DNA of 64,000 nt. Origin: Herbaspirillum frisingense GSF30 (lineage in GTDB: Bacteria > Pseudomonadota > Gammaproteobacteria > Burkholderiales > Burkholderiaceae_D). The position numbers and the translations under genes were made by a program. Position 1 is the stretch's first letter. Every line of letters starts with the position of its first letter. The notes below the pieces were generated by a model. That model did not search any database. It had not been told where the DNA came from and was given only the letters and a program-made list of their open reading frames with translations. The stretch lies in contig NZ_AEEC02000008.1 of NCBI RefSeq assembly GCF_000300975.2, positions 1 to 64,000 on the forward strand, written 5' to 3'. Below are positions 5,794 to 64,000 of the stretch, piece by piece.

Positions 5794-6915
5794 ATGAAAA
5801 AACTCGATCTGCTCGGCGGCATCACGCCCGCCCAATTCCTGCGTGACTACTGGCACAAGAAGCCACTGCTGATCCGCAATGCCATTCCCGGTTTTTCCCC
5901 GCCCCTGCCGCGCCAGGAACTGTTCGACCTGGCCCGGCACGAGGACGTCGAGTCGCGCCTGATCACCCATCGCGAAGATGGCTGGGACATGCAGCACGGC
6001 CCGTTCAACAAGCTCCCGCCCTTGAAGCAAAAGGCCTGGACCCTGCTGGTACAGGGCGTGAACCTGCATCACCCCGCGGCCGATGCCTTGCTGCGCCAGT
6101 TCCGCTTCGTACCCGATGCGCGCCTGGATGACCTGATGATCAGCTACGCCACCGACGGCGGCGGTGTCGGTCCGCACTTCGATTCCTACGACGTATTCCT
6201 GCTGCAGGCCCATGGCCAGCGCCGCTGGCGCATCAGCGCCCAGAATGACCTGACGCTGGAAGAAGGCGTGCCACTGAAGATTCTGAGCCACTTCCAGCCG
6301 GAAGAAGAATTCATCCTGGAACCCGGCGACATGCTCTATCTGCCGCCGCATTACGCCCATGACGGCGTGGCCGTGGGTGAATGCATGACCTATTCGGTGG
6401 GCTTCCGCGCACCGGCCTACCAGGAACTGGGCGAGTCCTTCCTGGAATTCATGATGGATACCATCGACCTGCCTGGCCGCTATGCCGATCCGGATCTCAA
6501 GACCAGCGCCCGCCCGGCCGAATTGCAGGCGGACATGATCACGCGCATCCGCGACGAACTCAACAAGATCCGCTTCACCGACGACGACATCACCATCTTC
6601 CTGGGTGAGCATCTGTCGGAGCCCAAACCCAGCGTTTTCTTCGAGCCACGCGGCGAGGAAATTTCATTTGCTCGCTTTTTCCAGGGGGCCAAGAAACGTG
6701 GTCTGGTATTGCATCGCAAGACCCGCATGCTGTATCGCGGCTCGCACGTGTTCATCAACGGCGAATCCTTCCAGGTCGGACGTCAGGACAAGACCATTCT
6801 TGCCCGTCTGGCGGACTCCCGCGCACTCGAAAAAACCGATTTCGCGCTGGCCTCGGAAGACCTGCTGGAAGCCCTCCACCAGTGGTATGAAAGTGGCTGG
6901 ATCGAATTTGTTTGA
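5794..6915 (+). CDS. roxA: Cupin/JmjC-type ribosomal protein uL16 arginine hydroxylase (RoxA/YcfD family)
   Basis: 2-oxoglutarate/Fe(II) oxygenase whose E. coli relative YcfD hydroxylates an arginine of ribosomal protein L16. The product is 373 residues, the same size as YcfD. The Fe(II) facial triad is visible as H128 and D130 (GPHFDSYD) and H189 (PPHYAHDGVAVG), followed by the family stretch TYSVGFRAPAYQELGESFLEFM and a C-terminal winged-helix region. The frame extends 13 codons upstream, but MKKLDLLGGITPAQFL is the family N-terminus. The start has no Shine-Dalgarno site and sits 7 bases after a TATAAT. Confidence 0.9.
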   Translation: MKKLDLLGGITPAQFLRDYWHKKPLLIRNAIPGFSPPLPRQELFDLARHEDVESRLITHREDGWDMQHGPFNKLPPLKQKAWTLLVQGVNLHHPAADALLRQFRFVPDARLDDLMISYATDGGGVGPHFDSYDVFLLQAHGQRRWRISAQNDLTLEEGVPLKILSHFQPEEEFILEPGDMLYLPPHYAHDGVAVGECMTYSVGFRAPAYQELGESFLEFMMDTIDLPGRYADPDLKTSARPAELQADMITRIRDELNKIRFTDDDITIFLGEHLSEPKPSVFFEPRGEEISFARFFQGAKKRGLVLHRKTRMLYRGSHVFINGESFQVGRQDKTILARLADSRALEKTDFALASEDLLEALHQWYESGWIEFV

Positions 6916-57869: not shown

Positions 57870-58313
57870 TCAGTAGGTCTTGTACGGCAGGAACTTGCCC
57901 GACAGCATCACGTTCACGCGATCCCCATTGGGATCGGCCTGGCGCTGGATATCCATCTTGAAATCGATGGCGCTCATGATGCCGTCGCCGAATTCTTCGT
58001 GGATCAGTTCCTTGATGGTGCTGCCATAGACGCTGACGATCTCGTACCAGCGGTAGATCAGCGGATCGGTCGGCACCGGAGTCGGCAGCGAACCCTTGTA
58101 GGGCACGATCTGCAGCCACAGGGTTTCTTCATCGGTGAGTTCGAACAGCTCCTGGGCGGTGGCGGCCTGCTTGGCGGTCAGGGTCATCTGGCCCAGCATG
58201 GCAGCGGTGGTCCACTCCTTGCTCTGGCCGATGCGCTCGGCGATCTGGGCCCAGGTCATCTTCTTGCTGACCTTGGCGGTGACGATCTTCTGGGTGACTT
58301 GGTTGCGGTCCAT
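57870..58313 (-). CDS. cynS: Cyanate hydratase (cyanase)
   Basis: Decamer that converts cyanate and bicarbonate to carbamate (then ammonia) and CO2, detoxifying cyanate and freeing nitrogen. 147 residues. Catalytic residues R88, E91 (IYRWYEI) and S114 (GDGIMSAIDF) have the spacing of E. coli Arg96/Glu99/Ser122. The N-terminal helical DNA-binding-like domain reads MTWAQIAERIGQSKEW. The start at 58313 is set by AAGGAGA 5 bases upstream. An earlier ATG (58355) is rejected. It follows the ABC ATPase gene by 120 bases. Confidence 0.97.
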   Translation of the reverse strand: MDRNQVTQKIVTAKVSKKMTWAQIAERIGQSKEWTTAAMLGQMTLTAKQAATAQELFELTDEETLWLQIVPYKGSLPTPVPTDPLIYRWYEIVSVYGSTIKELIHEEFGDGIMSAIDFKMDIQRQADPNGDRVNVMLSGKFLPYKTY

Positions 58314-58433
58314 GGCTATCTCCTTTTGGGTGGACGGAATAATGATCGACGACACACCTCTCAGTGCGCGTCATCGATCGTGATGAATGCTTGCGACACA
58401 ATGACGAAATCTCTTGGGCTGCCCTGCCGGTTT

Positions 58434-59288
58434 TCAGGCCACCGCCTGCTCCAGCCCCGGCATCACGATGCGCGTGGGAGGACGCGGCACCCCGCTGGCC
58501 TGGGCCGCCTGGATCTGGCGCGAGCGGTGTACCAGGAAGTCCACCAGGTGATTGCGGATGCGATAGAACTGCGGATCGTGATGCATGGCTTCCCGGCTGC
58601 GGGTCTTGGGCAAGGTGTTGATGACCACTTCGGCGATGCAGGCCTGCGGGCCGTTGGACATCAGGAATATCTTGTCGGCCAGCAGGATGGCCTCGTCCAC
58701 GTCGTGGGTGATCATGAACACGGTCTGACCGGTGGCGGCGCAGATCTTCAGCAGCTCGTCCTGCACCACGCCTCGCGTCAGGGCATCCAGGGCGCCGAAG
58801 GGTTCATCCATCAAGAGCATCTTGGGCTCGATGGAAAAGGCCCGGGCGATACCCACCCGCTGCTTCATGCCGCCCGAGAGTTCGGAGGGCTTCTTGTGCT
58901 CAGCCCCCTTCAGACCCACCATCGCGATGAAGCGGCGCGCATGTTCCTCGGCCTTGGCGCGCGACCAGTCGGGCCAGCGCGAACGGACCGCGAACACCAC
59001 GTTGCCCAGCACGCTGAACCAGGGCATGAGTGCATGGCTTTGGAACACCACGCCGCGATCCAGACTCGGCCCCTTGATCTCGCGCCGGTCCATGATGACT
59101 ACGCCGTCGCTGGCCGCCTCCAGCCCCGCCAACACGTTGAGGATGGTGGTCTTGCCGCAGCCGGAGTGGCCGATCACGCAGACGAATTCACCGCGGTCGA
59201 TACCGAAGGAAACCTGTTCGAACACCGGCGGCGCGCCCGCCGCATAGCGTTTGGAGAGCCCCTGCACGCTCAGGAAATTGTGGTCCAT
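58434..59288 (-). CDS. cynD: Cyanate/nitrate-type ABC transporter ATP-binding protein
   Basis: 284 residues of the NrtD/CmpD/SsuB group. Walker A GHSGCGKTTILN, Q-loop MVVFQSHAL-type (VVFQSHALMPWF), signature ELSGGMKQRVGIARAF, Walker B MLLMDEPFGALD, H-loop MITHDVDEA. GAGGG precedes the ATG at 59288. The longer frame would overlap the permease gene. Gene order binding protein-permease-ATPase-cyanase equals the cynABDS order of cyanobacteria, which is why I name it cynD. Nitrate or bicarbonate as the substrate cannot be excluded. Confidence 0.82.
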   Translation of the reverse strand: MDHNFLSVQGLSKRYAAGAPPVFEQVSFGIDRGEFVCVIGHSGCGKTTILNVLAGLEAASDGVVIMDRREIKGPSLDRGVVFQSHALMPWFSVLGNVVFAVRSRWPDWSRAKAEEHARRFIAMVGLKGAEHKKPSELSGGMKQRVGIARAFSIEPKMLLMDEPFGALDALTRGVVQDELLKICAATGQTVFMITHDVDEAILLADKIFLMSNGPQACIAEVVINTLPKTRSREAMHHDPQFYRIRNHLVDFLVHRSRQIQAAQASGVPRPPTRIVMPGLEQAVA

Positions 59289-59319
59289 GCTCTTGCCCTC
59301 TTCATTCGATGTACGCGAT

Positions 59320-60171
59320 TTACTCGACATAGGTCACCAGTCTTTGCAGCCGGGCGAAGATCAGGTCCAGCACCATGCCGGTCACGCCGATGACCAGGAT
59401 GGCGAAGATCACGCTGGTCAGCGACAGGTTGTTCCATTCGTTCCAGACGAAGTAACCGATGCCGGTGCCGCCCACCAGCATCTCGGCCGCCACGATCACC
59501 AGCCAGGCGATCCCCATGGAAATGCGCATGCCGGTCAGGATGGTGGGTGCCGCCGCCGGCAGGATCACCAGGAAGGCGCGCCGCAACGAGGACACTTCCA
59601 GCGTCTTGGCCACGTTGAGCCAGTCGCGCCGCACCGAGGCCACGCCGAAGGCGGTGTTCATCAGCATCGGCCAGACCGAGCAGATGAAAATCACGAACAC
59701 GCCCGAGATCGACGAATCCTTGATCGTGTACAGCGCCAGCGGCATCCAGGCCAGCGGCGAGATGGGCTTGAGGATCTGGATGAAGGGATTCAGGGCGCGC
59801 TGCATCAGCGGCGACATGCCCAGCAGGAAACCCAGCGGAATCGCCACCACCGCCGCAATCGCAAATCCCAGTCCGACCCGTCCCAGCGAATAGGCCAGCT
59901 GGATGCCGATGCCCTTGTCGTTGGGACCGTTGTCGTAGAAGGGATTGGCCAATTCCTTGCGGATGGTCTCGCCCATCTGCGCCAGGCCGGGAAAGCCGTC
60001 GCGCTTGGCCGCGCCACTGCTCTTGCCCATCAGCTTGGCGTATTCATCCTGGGCGGCGCTGGCCGCGCCCTCCTGCGGCAGCGTCGCGAAATGCCACACC
60101 ATCAGCAACGCCGCCAGCAGCAACAGCGAGATCAGCGCGGCGCGCCAGCCGAGATGCCTGGCCGGCATCAT
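59320..60171 (-). CDS. cynB: Cyanate/nitrate-type ABC transporter permease
   Basis: 283 residues, six or so membrane segments of the NrtB/SsuC type. Conserved cytoplasmic EAA-like loop AKTLEVSSLRRAFLVILPAAAPTILTGMRISMGIAWLVIVAAEML. A periplasmic stretch after the first segment holds AQDEYAKLMGKSSGAAKRDGFPG. The start ATGATG at 60171 overlaps the stop of the binding-protein gene by 4 bases (ATGA), pointing to translational coupling. Confidence 0.83.
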   Translation of the reverse strand: MMPARHLGWRAALISLLLLAALLMVWHFATLPQEGAASAAQDEYAKLMGKSSGAAKRDGFPGLAQMGETIRKELANPFYDNGPNDKGIGIQLAYSLGRVGLGFAIAAVVAIPLGFLLGMSPLMQRALNPFIQILKPISPLAWMPLALYTIKDSSISGVFVIFICSVWPMLMNTAFGVASVRRDWLNVAKTLEVSSLRRAFLVILPAAAPTILTGMRISMGIAWLVIVAAEMLVGGTGIGYFVWNEWNNLSLTSVIFAILVIGVTGMVLDLIFARLQRLVTYVE

Positions 60172-61565
60172 GCGCTCCTCTTGATGGCGAAGCTGTTGAC
60201 GTAGGCCTCGGCCTTGTTGGCGTCGAACTCCTTGCCCATGATGGAATACTTGCGATAGGCACCTTCCGGCACCGGCTGGCCCAGTTCCTTCATGTGTTTC
60301 TTGGCCTCGGTCAGCAGCAGCACCTTCTCGGTGATGGCCTTGTAGTCGATATCACCCTTGATGTAACCCCAACGCTTCATCTGCGTGAGAATCCACACCC
60401 CCATCGAATCCCAGGGCACCGGGTCAAAGTCGGCACGGCCCGGCACGTTCTTCACATTGCCCAGACCATCGGCAAAGCGCCCGGTCAGCACCTGCTCCAC
60501 CACCGTCTCGGGCTGGTTGAGATAGGCCGCCGGCGAGATCACCTTGGCCACCAGTGAGCGGTTGGACGGGTCGCGCGCCATCGCGGCGGCGGTCAGCACG
60601 GCGCGGAACAGCGCGGCGAAGGTGTTGGGGTTCTGCTTGATGAATTCTTCCGACGTACCAAAGGCACAGCAGGGGTGGCCGTCCCAGATGTCGCGCGAGA
60701 GGATGTGGATGAAACCGATCTCGTCATACACCGCGCGCTGGTTGAAGGGATCGGGGCCGAGGAAGCCGTCGATGTTGCCGGCCCGCAGGTTGGCCACCAT
60801 CTCCGGCGGCGGCGTGACGCGGATCTGTACATCGCGGTCCGGGTCCAGGCCATGTTCGGCCAGGTAGTAGCGCAACAGGAAGTTGTGCATCGAATACTCG
60901 AACGGCACCGCGAACTTGAAGCCCTTCCACTGCCGGGGATCGCGCTTGTCCTTGTGCTTGTTGTGCAGCGTAATGGCCTGGCCGTTGATGTTCTGGATGG
61001 TCGCCACGCGCATCTGGGTGGCGTTGCTGCCCACCCCCATGGACATGGCCATGGGCATGGGCGAGAGGAAGTGCGAGGCGTCGTGTTCCTTGTTGATCAT
61101 CTTATCGCGGATCAGCGCCCAGCCAGCCGTCTTGTTGAGCGACACGTTCAGGCCCTGCTTGCGGTAGAAGCCCAGCGGGTCGGCCATGATCAGCGGCGCC
61201 GCGCAGGTGATGGCGATGAAGCCGATCTTGAGGTCCTTCTTTTCCAGGGCGCCATTCTTTTCCTGTGCCATGGCCTGCAGCGAACCCAGCGGCAACACGC
61301 TGGCAATGGCCGCCCGCGCCGCATTGCGGCCCACCGCCCGCAGAAAGTCGCGGCGCTCGGCTACCCGCGGGAAGAGCGAACGCATCACGGCTTCTTCCAC
61401 CACGTCGTTGGTGAGGGCTTCCACATCCTGGCCGCGCTGCTGGCGCAGTGCTTCGACCTCGACATCGTGTTGCTGCTGGCTGCCGTGGCGGCCACAGGAA
61501 CAGCCCTGGCCGGCGCGCTCGGCGTCATAGGTGTGGAACAGATTGGTGTCTGCTGCGTTCGGCAT
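60168..61565 (-). CDS. cynA: NrtA/CmpA-family ABC transporter binding protein, probable cyanate binding
   Basis: 465 residues. The binding domain (KIGFIAITCAAPLIMADPLGFYRKQGLNV, then GADG-like DGFLGPDPFNQRAVYDEIGF) is of the NrtA/CmpA type that recognises nitrate, bicarbonate or cyanate. A twin-arginine export motif ERRDFLRAVG sits at residues 70-79, but 60 residues precede it, including CSCGRHGSQQQHD (C22, C24, H27, H33), a possible metal-binding tail. GGGGGA stands just before the ATG. A second ATG at codon 61 would give an ordinary Tat signal. First gene of the cyn unit, with a sigma-54-type promoter 52 bases upstream. Confidence 0.82.
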   Translation of the reverse strand: MPNAADTNLFHTYDAERAGQGCSCGRHGSQQQHDVEVEALRQQRGQDVEALTNDVVEEAVMRSLFPRVAERRDFLRAVGRNAARAAIASVLPLGSLQAMAQEKNGALEKKDLKIGFIAITCAAPLIMADPLGFYRKQGLNVSLNKTAGWALIRDKMINKEHDASHFLSPMPMAMSMGVGSNATQMRVATIQNINGQAITLHNKHKDKRDPRQWKGFKFAVPFEYSMHNFLLRYYLAEHGLDPDRDVQIRVTPPPEMVANLRAGNIDGFLGPDPFNQRAVYDEIGFIHILSRDIWDGHPCCAFGTSEEFIKQNPNTFAALFRAVLTAAAMARDPSNRSLVAKVISPAAYLNQPETVVEQVLTGRFADGLGNVKNVPGRADFDPVPWDSMGVWILTQMKRWGYIKGDIDYKAITEKVLLLTEAKKHMKELGQPVPEGAYRKYSIMGKEFDANKAEAYVNSFAIKRSA

Positions 61566-61616
61566 GATTCCCCCGTTTGGTGAGTGTGCGGTGATTTCTT
61601 TGCTTCACCACCCTCC

Positions 61617-61634
61617 ATTGCAAGGGACTTGCCA
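61617..61634 (-). promoter_or_regulatory. Near-consensus sigma-54 promoter of the cyn operon
   Basis: TGGCAAGTCCCTTGCA on the minus strand matches the RpoN consensus TGGCACG-N4-TTGCA with one change. The essential GG (61633-61632) and GC (61621-61620) are separated by exactly 10 bases. A start near 61608 leaves a leader of about 43 bases to the binding-protein ATG. Confidence 0.7.
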
Positions 61635-61668
61635 GCCTCATAGGCTACGTCATGCTGTCACGACATCC

Positions 61669-61686
61669 TGTAGTGCTGGCACTACA
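61669..61686. promoter_or_regulatory. 18-bp palindrome upstream of the sigma-54 promoter
   Basis: TGTAGTGC-TG-GCACTACA, perfect 8-bp arms, centred about 70 bases before the predicted start site. A second short palindrome, TGTCACGACA, lies between it and the promoter (around 61657-61666). This is the position of an enhancer-binding site. The bound protein is unknown and the pattern is not the usual NtrC site. Confidence 0.5.
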
Positions 61687-61705
61687 AGCCGGGGCCAAAC
61701 CCGCG

Positions 61706-62368
61706 TCAGACCGGCAGCAACTGGTGACGTACCGCATACATGGCGATGCCGACGTCATTGGCGGCGCCGGTCTTTTCCAGGATGCGGCTGCGATAGGTGC
61801 TCACCGTATTGGGGCTCAGTTCCAGCTGCTCGGCGATCTCGCGCACGCTGCGACCCGCAGCGATCAGCTGGAACACCTGGTATTCACGGTGCGACAGGCT
61901 TTCGTGCGCGGCCCGCGGCGCAGCACCGGCGTGCTGGGCCAGGCCGGAGGCCAGCGTCTCGGCCATCTGCGCGCTCACATAGAGGCCACCGCCGGCAGCC
62001 TTGCGGATGGCATCCACCAGTTGCTCGGGATCGGCGCTCTTGTTGAGATAGCCGGCCGCGCCCAGCTTGTAGCAGCGCGCCGCATATTGCTTTTCGGGAT
62101 AGGTGGACAGCATCAGCACCGGCAGACGCGGCATCTCCTGCTTGATCTGGCGCAGCACGTCCAGTCCGTCCTGCTGGGGGATGGCGATGTCCAGCAGCAC
62201 CAGGTCGATGGCCTCCACCCGGGCCCGGTGCAAGACCTCCGGCCCGCTGGCACATTCGGCGGCGACCTCGATATCGGGGGTATCGGCCAGGATCTGCTTG
62301 AGACCCTCGCGCACGATGCGATGATCGTCGCACAAGAGAATGCGGATGGTCTCGGCGCCGGCACTCAT
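61706..62368 (-). CDS. NarL/FixJ-type response regulator
   Basis: 220 residues. Receiver domain with the acidic pair D14/D15 (LLCDDHRIV), phosphoacceptor D60 (LVLLDIAIP), T/S in MLSTYPE and K110 (YLNKSADPE). LuxR-type HTH at the C-terminus (LSHREYQVFQLIAAGRSVREIAEQLELSPNTVSTYRSRILEKT). The ATG at 62368 overlaps the kinase stop as ATGA, so the pair is co-translated. It stands directly upstream of the cyn operon, 140 bases away on the same strand, and is a natural candidate regulator, although sigma-54 promoters normally need an AAA+ activator, which this protein is not. Confidence 0.92.
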   Translation of the reverse strand: MSAGAETIRILLCDDHRIVREGLKQILADTPDIEVAAECASGPEVLHRARVEAIDLVLLDIAIPQQDGLDVLRQIKQEMPRLPVLMLSTYPEKQYAARCYKLGAAGYLNKSADPEQLVDAIRKAAGGGLYVSAQMAETLASGLAQHAGAAPRAAHESLSHREYQVFQLIAAGRSVREIAEQLELSPNTVSTYRSRILEKTGAANDVGIAMYAVRHQLLPV

Positions 62369-63567
62369 GCCGCCTCCCGGCCGCCGTGACTGGGCAGGCG
62401 CAGGCAGACCAGGGTCCCCGGCCTGCCGCTCTCTGGTGCAAGACGCGCACCAGCAATGCTCAATGCGCCGCCAAAGTGCAAGGCCCGCTCGCGCATGCCC
62501 ATCACGCCGTAGGAGGTGGCCGCCTCCAGCGCCGCACGGGGTGCACCCACGCCATCGTCTTCCACTTCCATGCGCAGCTCCGACGGGCTCAGGTGCACGG
62601 CGATGCGCACCCGCGTGGCATTGGCATGACGCGCCACGTTGGACAACATTTCCTGGAAGATGCGAAACGCCGCCGTGGCCTTGGCGCCATCCGGGGGAAA
62701 GGCTTCGGGTGCGATATCGAACTCGACCTCGCAGGGCAGTTCGGTGGCTTCCGAGAACTCCTGCACCTGCCATTCGAGGGCGGCGATCAGGCCCTGGTGA
62801 TCCAGGATGCTGGGCCGCAGGTCGGTGATGATGCGCCCTACATTGTCCACCGCCGTCTCGATCAGGCGGCTCATGGCATCACACTTGCGGGCCACCGGTT
62901 CCAGGTCGGTGACGCGCTTGGCCATCCAGTTCACATCCAGTTTCAAGGCCACCAGCAGGCTGCCCAGTTCATCGTGGATCTCGCGGGCGATACGGGTGCG
63001 CTCATCCTCGCGCACCGAGTGCGCATGCGCCGACAACTGCCGCACCTGGCGCAGCGCGGCCGACAGTTCGCGGGTGCGCTCGGCCACCCGCACTTCCAGC
63101 TCGGCCTTGGCGCGCTGCAGTTGTTCCTCGGCCTGGCGGCGCTTGGAGATATCGCTGAAGGTGATCACCGCACCGCGTACCTGGCCGCCGTCGACGATCT
63201 GGTAGGAAGAATATTCGGTCGGGAAGAAGCTGCCATCGGCACGCCAGAACACTTCCTGATCGACCCGGCAGGACTCGCCCTTGCGGAAGGCCTTCAGGAT
63301 GGGGCAGTCGGCCTCGGGGTAATGACCGCCGTGCTCATGGCTGTGGTGCACCAGATCGTGCATGTTGCGCCCCAGTACCTCGGCCGGGGCATAGCCCAGC
63401 ATGTCGGCGCCGGCGCGATTGATGAAGGTACACAGGCCCTCCAGGTCGATGCCATAGATGCCTTCGCCGGTGGAGTCCAGCAGCAGCGCCAGCTTGTCGC
63501 GCAGCAGGCCGCCGGGTGCGGCCAGGGCATCGGAAGCAAAAACGGGCAGGTGGGGATCGTTGTGCAT
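62365..63567 (-). CDS. PAS-containing HisKA_3 sensor histidine kinase
   Basis: 400 residues, soluble (no membrane segment). PAS domain at about 25-145 with the His/Cys-rich stretch HHSHEHGGHYPEADCP, then a short coiled coil, HisKA_3 dimerisation domain with phospho-acceptor H198 (RIAREIHDELGS), and a HATPase domain (FQEMLSNVARHANATRV, VEDDGVGAP, YGVMGMRERALHFGG). The ATG at 63567 is the only ATG, GTG or TTG between the hairpin and the PAS domain apart from GTG at 63576 just before it. The start codon lies in the loop of a perfect 16-bp hairpin. Confidence 0.9.
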   Translation of the reverse strand: MHNDPHLPVFASDALAAPGGLLRDKLALLLDSTGEGIYGIDLEGLCTFINRAGADMLGYAPAEVLGRNMHDLVHHSHEHGGHYPEADCPILKAFRKGESCRVDQEVFWRADGSFFPTEYSSYQIVDGGQVRGAVITFSDISKRRQAEEQLQRAKAELEVRVAERTRELSAALRQVRQLSAHAHSVREDERTRIAREIHDELGSLLVALKLDVNWMAKRVTDLEPVARKCDAMSRLIETAVDNVGRIITDLRPSILDHQGLIAALEWQVQEFSEATELPCEVEFDIAPEAFPPDGAKATAAFRIFQEMLSNVARHANATRVRIAVHLSPSELRMEVEDDGVGAPRAALEAATSYGVMGMRERALHFGGALSIAGARLAPESGRPGTLVCLRLPSHGGREAA

Positions 63568-63583
63568 GATCCCCACCTGCCCG
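63538..63583 (-). terminator. Terminator-shaped hairpin enclosing the kinase start codon
   Basis: CGGGCAGGTGGGGATC and GATCCCCACCTGCCCG (63543-63558 and 63568-63583) pair perfectly over 16 bp. The 9-base loop carries the kinase ATG (63567-63565), and AAAAA at 63538-63542 makes a T-run on the minus strand. It could end transcription of the SDR gene 60 bases upstream and, if read through, hide the kinase ribosome site. Confidence 0.8.
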
Positions 63584-63644
63584 CAAGAGGCATGCCAGTG
63601 CCCGCCGCCCGGGCCTGGCCCGACAGTGGTACCGGCTGGCCCCG

Positions 63645-64000
63645 TTACGGCATGTACTGCCCGCCGTTGACGTCGATGATCTGGCCGGTCACATAGCCCG
63701 ACATCTGGTTCGAGGCCAGGTAGAGGAAGGCACCGCTGCACTCGTCCGGGTCGCCGATGCGGCCCATGGGGATGGTCTTGCGGAACCCCTCCAGCTGGTC
63801 CGGGGTGGTGAAGCGTTCCTGGAACGGGGTCATGATCACACCCGGCGCCACGGCGTTGACGCGGATCTTGTCGGCCAGCAATTCCTTGGCCATGCCACGC
63901 GTGATGGTACTCACGAAGCCCTTGGAGGCCGCATAGATCAGCGCACCCGGGCCGCCGCCATGCCGCGCCGCCACCGAGGTCACGTTGATGATGTTGCCGC
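63645..64000 (-). CDS. SDR-family oxidoreductase, 5'-truncated
   Basis: Only the C-terminal part is in the window. The frame is open to the right edge. Visible are the catalytic serine strand GNIINVTSV, the Tyr/Lys pair in LIYAASKGFV, IRVNAVAPGVIMTPF and the closing SGYVTGQIIDVNGGQYMP, all classical short-chain dehydrogenase features. NAD(P)-dependent. The substrate is unknown, and the C-terminus resembles the 3-oxoacyl-ACP reductase and glucose dehydrogenase-like groups. Its terminator appears to overlap the start of the downstream kinase gene. Confidence 0.88.
   Translation of the reverse strand, partial: GNIINVTSVAARHGGGPGALIYAASKGFVSTITRGMAKELLADKIRVNAVAPGVIMTPFQERFTTPDQLEGFRKTIPMGRIGDPDECSGAFLYLASNQMSGYVTGQIIDVNGGQYMP

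Follow-up and report, generated by a model that had tools for sequence, protein, structure and literature searches.

The insertion sequences IS10, IS50 and IS200 carry hairpins at the transposase start that protect against read-through from outside promoters, and RNA from the inside promoter lacks one arm. In phage T4, long transcripts of gene e hide the start in a helix and give about 100-fold less lysozyme, whereas late-promoter transcripts, which start inside the region and lack the helix's 5' strand, are translated; translation-initiation hairpins also occur in T4 soc, 49 and I-TevI (PMC3014915). In the cynF-cynABDS region of Pseudomonas pseudoalcaligenes, a putative sigma-54 promoter precedes the genes for cyanate transport and cyanase, and CynF, a sigma-54-dependent activator, is divergently transcribed from a putative sigma-70 promoter (PMC6627978). 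A survey of the sigma-54 regulon includes cyanate lyase (PMC12316311), and leaderless mRNAs starting exactly at the AUG were mapped in Sinorhizobium meliloti (PMC3616915).

In a 64,000-nucleotide stretch of Herbaspirillum frisingense GSF30 DNA (the window), a long hairpin at the start of a sensor histidine kinase gene abuts a predicted sigma-54 promoter. As in T4 gene e (PMC3014915), RNA derived from upstream would hide the Shine-Dalgarno-like bases and AUG and own-promoter RNA would start within the region of the 5' strand. Unlike T4 gene e, the kinase hairpin lies on a bacterial chromosome with a sigma-54 promoter, a predicted near-leaderless own mRNA and the AUG in its loop, and a T-run gives the same stem a terminator-like character in two species. 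The kinase hairpin would function like the gene e system and is not its evolutionary relative. The insertion sequences share the principle that outside RNA folds over the start and inside-promoter RNA cannot, but no mobile element is present at the kinase locus and the neighbour is a conserved host gene. The Herbaspirillum cluster resembles cynF-cynABDS (PMC6627978) in that a putative sigma-54 promoter precedes the cyanate transport and cyanase genes; it differs in that the regulatory pair, a PAS/HisKA_3 kinase and a LuxR-type regulator, also has a sigma-54 promoter in front of it. The kinase mRNA is predicted to begin almost at the AUG, in the manner of the S. meliloti leaderless mRNAs (PMC3616915), but with a predicted leader of 4 nt (0-2 nt in the distant orthologs L049, L051 and L052), and a 4-nt leader differs from the classical leaderless mRNA that has AUG at its 5' end. 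A literature search found no description of this arrangement, which is not proof of its absence.

We propose, with a probability of roughly 0.7, that the hairpin acts as a boundary device separating the GntR-SDR unit from the two-component/cyanate cluster that sigma-54 drives, a device from which the kinase's own mRNA would exempt itself.

The kinase-start hairpin and the cyanate gene cluster

The features of the locus are as follows.

L077:615-1328, GntR/FCD regulator gene, farther upstream of the SDR gene
63645..64000, minus strand, 3' part of the SDR gene, upstream of the kinase and running past the window
63583..63597, minus strand, sigma-54 (-24/-12) promoter TGGCATGCCTCTTGC, predicted from sequence, orthologs and genome enrichment
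63568..63583, minus strand, left arm of the hairpin, which contains AGGTGGGG and of which only the last 4 bases fall in the predicted own mRNA
63571, minus strand, predicted +1, 12 nt after the -12 C, by sigma-54 geometry
63559..63567, minus strand, hairpin loop, opening with the kinase ATG (63567-63565)
63543..63558, minus strand, right arm of the hairpin, coding, codons 4-9
63538..63542, minus strand, T-run 3' of the stem, 5 T (4 in G020, 3 in G001 and G006)
62365..63567, minus strand, sensor histidine kinase (PAS, HisKA_3, HATPase_c)
61706..62368, minus strand, response regulator (Response_reg, GerE/LuxR), its ATG overlapping the kinase stop (ATGA)
61619..61634, minus strand, second predicted sigma-54 promoter TGGCAAGTCCCTTGCA, ahead of the transporter gene
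60168..61565, minus strand, NMT1_2 substrate-binding protein (CynA/NrtA-like)
59320..60171, minus strand, ABC transporter permease (CynB-like)
58434..59330, minus strand, ABC transporter ATPase (CynD-like)
57870..58313, minus strand, cyanase (cynS)

The initial annotation had described a perfect 16-bp stem, a 9-nt loop beginning with the kinase ATG, and then TTTTT, and all are present: minus-strand bases 63583-63568 (CGGGCAGGTGGGGATC) pair perfectly with 63558-63543 (GATCCCCACCTGCCCG) around the loop ATGCACAAC (63567-63559), whose first three bases are the ATG. The computed folding energy of the hairpin is -35.1 kcal/mol, and the 111-nt region around it folds better than every one of 200 dinucleotide shuffles (z = -5.4). 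It is the sole perfect stem of at least 16 bp (loop 3-12) in the window, and none of 200 first-order Markov windows contained one, the longest reaching 15; shuffles and Markov windows together exclude a chance origin of the stem. A survey of 462,508 bases of this genome (plus strand, G-T pairs accepted) gave 78 hairpins, of which one other equals it in stem length and none exceeds it. A scan of these bases for hairpins with a possible start codon inside (ORF of at least 100 aa) returned 21 hairpin/strand cases, mostly GTG or TTG or within longer ORFs. On the plus strand no T-run follows the stem (0 T in 8), and a role for the hairpin on that strand was rejected. On the reading strand, a GC-rich stem followed immediately by a U-run, the signature of an intrinsic terminator, is found in our genome (G000).

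The two-component pair heads the cyanate transporter and cyanase genes on one strand (57870-63567). The gene order is kept in most of 21 related loci (L033-L053, compared out of 44, with the 23 more distant loci L054-L076 set aside); the regulator is present in 21/21, GntR with SDR in 15/21, and cyanase in 19/21, L047 ending early and L052 being without it. The kinase of this 5.4-Mb genome shares 98% identity with its counterpart in Herbaspirillum sp. AP02.

The putative sigma-54 promoter and the predicted start of the kinase mRNA

Sigma-54 promoters are recognized by a GG and a GC 10 bases apart in the context TGGCAYRN4TTGC. The letters before the stem on the minus strand are TGGCATG-CCTC-TTGC (63597-63583); the spacing from GG to GC is 10 bases, the GC (-13/-12) lies at 63584/63583, and the -12 base doubles as the first base of the stem. 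Orthologs were sought in 34 Herbaspirillum genomes and 22 matches were accepted at 70% identity or more; the matches in the remaining 12 genomes were all weaker, at 31-40% identity and an E value of about 1e-29 or higher, and stayed outside the ortholog set. The GG and GC in this spacing and context are found in 21/21 orthologs (L003-L023), each with a TGGCAY-N6-TGC element, always ending TTGC, at the place of the kinase promoter, and the upstream gene differs among them (SDR in 13, GntR in 1, neither within 300 nt in 7). The 22nd ortholog, L024 (70% identity), has a promoter motif that fits only when relaxed (CGGCATAAACCTTGC) and is outside these counts. Sigma-54-like elements also precede all four farther betaproteobacterial orthologs (L048 CTGGCACAAGCCTTGC, L049 CGGCACGCCGCTTGC, L051 TGGCACATCCCTTGC and L052 CGGCATGGGGCTTGC). 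TGGCAYGN4TTGC occurs 28 times in the genome against 3 for the reversed control, and one sigma-54 gene was found. No sigma-70-like site was found near the kinase start on the same strand. An activator presumably drives the promoter, and a simple scan for NtrC-type upstream sites gave only weak matches, several within the SDR coding region and none convincing. In L016, where the SDR gene is absent, an AT-rich run with repeated TACAT/ATGTA-like motifs lies 100-200 nt 5' of the kinase promoter and is possibly a regulator site. The second sigma-54 promoter, before the transporter gene, is likewise present in 21/21 orthologs and, unlike that of the kinase, is followed by an ordinary leader with GGGGGA ahead of the ATG.

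Transcription from sigma-54 promoters starts twelve bases past the -12 C, within 1-2 nt. By this rule we infer a +1 at about 63571, inside the left arm and 4 nt ahead of the ATG. The predicted kinase mRNA reads GAUCAUGCACAACGAUC, beginning GAUCAUG with the ATG at +5, and it would lack 12 of the 16 left-arm bases and keep 4; with its 5' end inside the left arm, it should be unable to fold the hairpin. From +1 to the PAS domain there is no ATG, GTG or TTG other than the loop ATG. In G001 and G006 the same holds for the whole interval from the -12 base to that domain. Alternative starts at an upstream GTG (63576) or TTG were rejected because they lie 5' of the predicted +1.

Of the 21 orthologs, 12 have the ATG at +2 to +5 and the other 9 have it at +18 to +35. 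Among the distant orthologs it lies at exactly +1 in L049, at +3 in L051 and at +2 in L052, and L048 has no start codon until a GTG at +37; the predicted leader is accordingly 4 nt in G000 and 0 in L049. As the ATG lies near +1 in 12 of the 21 orthologs and in three distant ones, the near-leaderless kinase mRNA seems to be older than the hairpin. At none of the 27 other motif sites in the genome is the first start (ORF of at least 80 aa) an ATG within +1 to +6. Many of the 27 are in open frames and are perhaps not promoters; near-leaderless starts were rejected as a general trait of sigma-54 sites in this genome. With an ATG conserved at +1 to +5 of a sigma-54 promoter, the kinase would lend itself well to testing leaderless-type initiation in the Burkholderiales. 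In the distant betaproteobacterial locus L049 (about 5960-6010), the predicted sigma-54 +1 coincides with the only candidate ATG, and this ortholog is a promising case of a truly leaderless sigma-54 mRNA.

Evolution of the stem and its terminator-like character

The hairpin belongs to an eight-species clade, that of H. huttiense/aquaticum (support 1.000), and its computed energy is -35.1 kcal/mol in G000 and G020, -30.6 in G001, -30.0 in G006, -25.1 in G012, -21.0 in G023, -12.4 in G026 and -6.3 in G033; G023 has an imperfect stem and G026 a poor one. Five species with distinct stems of equal length were aligned, leaving out G020, whose stem is identical to that of G000, G012, which has a 1-nt deletion and a bulge, and G033, which has a 3-nt deletion and a decayed hairpin. 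In this alignment 90% of cells are paired, against 43-56% when the arms are slid. A comparison with relatives had been suggested as a check on the hairpin, and in it three pairs have changed on both sides. Out of 500 shuffles, the real alignment was matched by 4 for covariation score, 4 for paired cells, 30 for both-side-changed pairs and 24 for pair types, and when arms were swapped between species (7 distinct hairpins, G033 among them), 10 of 5040 permutations were as good as the true pairing. Support for a stem kept by compensatory changes is moderate, because the sequences are few and related; only three independent lineages carry the stem.

In G033 (locus L009), which nests with the hairpin-bearing G012, G001 and G006 (support 0.990), the SDR gene has been lost between GntR and the kinase promoter, GntR is directly upstream, and the stem has decayed. 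This loss is a natural test of the purpose of the hairpin. Outside the clade, five of the six SDR-adjacent species (L011, L015, L017, L021 and L022) carry a distinct terminator-like hairpin in the gap that separates the SDR gene from the promoter, with a positive terminator score d in four, and none was found in this gap in the sixth, L013. Nor was a separate one found between SDR and promoter in the 7 SDR-adjacent members of the clade.

Terminator strength was expressed by the score d, which is 39.7 in G000, 26.7 in G020, 3.2 in G001, -0.4 in G006 and -16 to -68 in G012, G023, G026 and G033. The hairpin over the start passes a loose terminator test in the first four, and a good T-run is found in G000 and G020 only and is not kept across the clade. 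Termination is therefore doubtful outside these two genomes.

The computed cost of opening the start region is 27.8 kcal/mol in read-through RNA (16.9 over an identical footprint) versus 2.4 in own RNA. Throughout the clade it is 9.2-27.9 versus 0.7-3.3 kcal/mol, and in four near-leaderless orthologs without the hairpin 7.9-13.0 versus 1.6-3.0, so part of the difference is present even without the hairpin. Of the traits of a gene e-type trap, the computed opening costs bear out a helix that hides the Shine-Dalgarno sequence and/or AUG in a longer RNA, and the predicted +1 at 63571 would put the start of own-promoter RNA within the 5' strand of the helix.

Interpretations of the hairpin

The initial annotation had missed the promoter, and with it in place the hairpin is read as a filter against foreign RNA and not as a switch on the kinase mRNA. 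Its double duty of stopping SDR transcripts and shutting the kinase start in read-through RNA would still hold, judging from the terminator score and the opening costs. Its proposal that AGGTGGGG is the kinase ribosome site was not upheld, because this sequence is upstream of the predicted +1 and would be absent from the own mRNA; nor was the idea of an internally started kinase RNA that carries the hairpin and awaits an opener, as the sigma-54 promoter adjoins the stem and the predicted 5' end at 63571 falls within the left arm. Transcripts starting downstream of 63583, together with a kinase start downstream of the hairpin, had been named as evidence against that annotation; the predicted transcript start does lie there, and no kinase start lies beyond the hairpin, since the loop ATG has no competitor before the PAS domain.

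If the kinase mRNA nevertheless carried the hairpin, by SDR read-through or from an upstream promoter, a regulator, a small RNA, heat or coupled translation might open AGGTGGGG and the AUG. The left arms are purine-rich and SD-like throughout the clade (e.g. GGGGAGG in G006) and could be in use as ribosome sites, and the computed hairpin would strongly close the kinase start. We consider such a switch improbable, as the conserved sigma-54 promoter would begin the RNA inside the left arm, opening a perfect 16-bp stem is very costly, and four of the 12 near-leaderless Herbaspirillum orthologs (L011, L012, L013 and L015) have neither the hairpin nor a Shine-Dalgarno sequence before the ATG. No Rfam covariance model matches the hairpin (one sub-threshold match lies elsewhere, at 62051-62124), and no known RNA family such as a thermometer or riboswitch was recognized there. 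A start codon in a strong hairpin need not imply riboswitch-like control, as the true 5' end may be inside the hairpin. It is less far-fetched, though still unlikely, that the hairpin is merely the intrinsic terminator of the SDR gene, chancing to overlap the next promoter and start with no consequence for translation: the run of 5 T and the d of 39.7 in G000 would suit this, as would the failure to find another terminator in this SDR-kinase gap, but compensatory stem changes persist in G001, G006 and G012 despite a T-run of 2-3, which fits hiding of the start at least as well as termination. The palindrome, with its symmetric arms overlapping -12 to +29, might also be a DNA site through which a dimeric protein regulates the sigma-54 promoter, negatively or positively; we give this very little credence, for the arm sequences vary in step between species instead of staying fixed, and the arms are asymmetric between strands, a T-run following on just one side.

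The boundary reading builds on what is seen in the sequence and its comparison, namely the hairpin, the conserved promoter, the position of the ATG, the compensatory changes and the gene order. The kinase would be transcribed from the sigma-54 promoter with +1 within the left arm, and its own mRNA, starting at about GAUC-AUG, would be nearly leaderless, unable to form the hairpin and translated by leaderless-type initiation. A polymerase coming from the SDR gene would make the complete stem, and in this species and its closest relative the read-through RNA would terminate at the T-run. Any RNA escaping past the T-run would have its AUG and SD-like bases buried, which we infer would block translation, so that kinase expression would come solely from its own nitrogen-type promoter. 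For the fuller version we see about an even chance: a single hairpin laid over the -12 base, the +1 and the start codon would judge RNA by origin, foreign RNA being both ended and made untranslatable while own RNA escapes, and it would have replaced an ordinary upstream terminator in the clade.

If true, this would explain how a nitrogen-controlled sensor stays silent while its neighbour is transcribed, and would bring the logic of T4 gene e, merged with a terminator, into ordinary bacterial chromosomes. Other chromosomal genes with near-leaderless mRNAs could then use the same trick.

Elsewhere, at L093:16783-16826, a 17-bp hairpin lies at the very end of one gene with a T-rich stretch (6/8) on the minus strand, and is probably an ordinary terminator between convergent genes.
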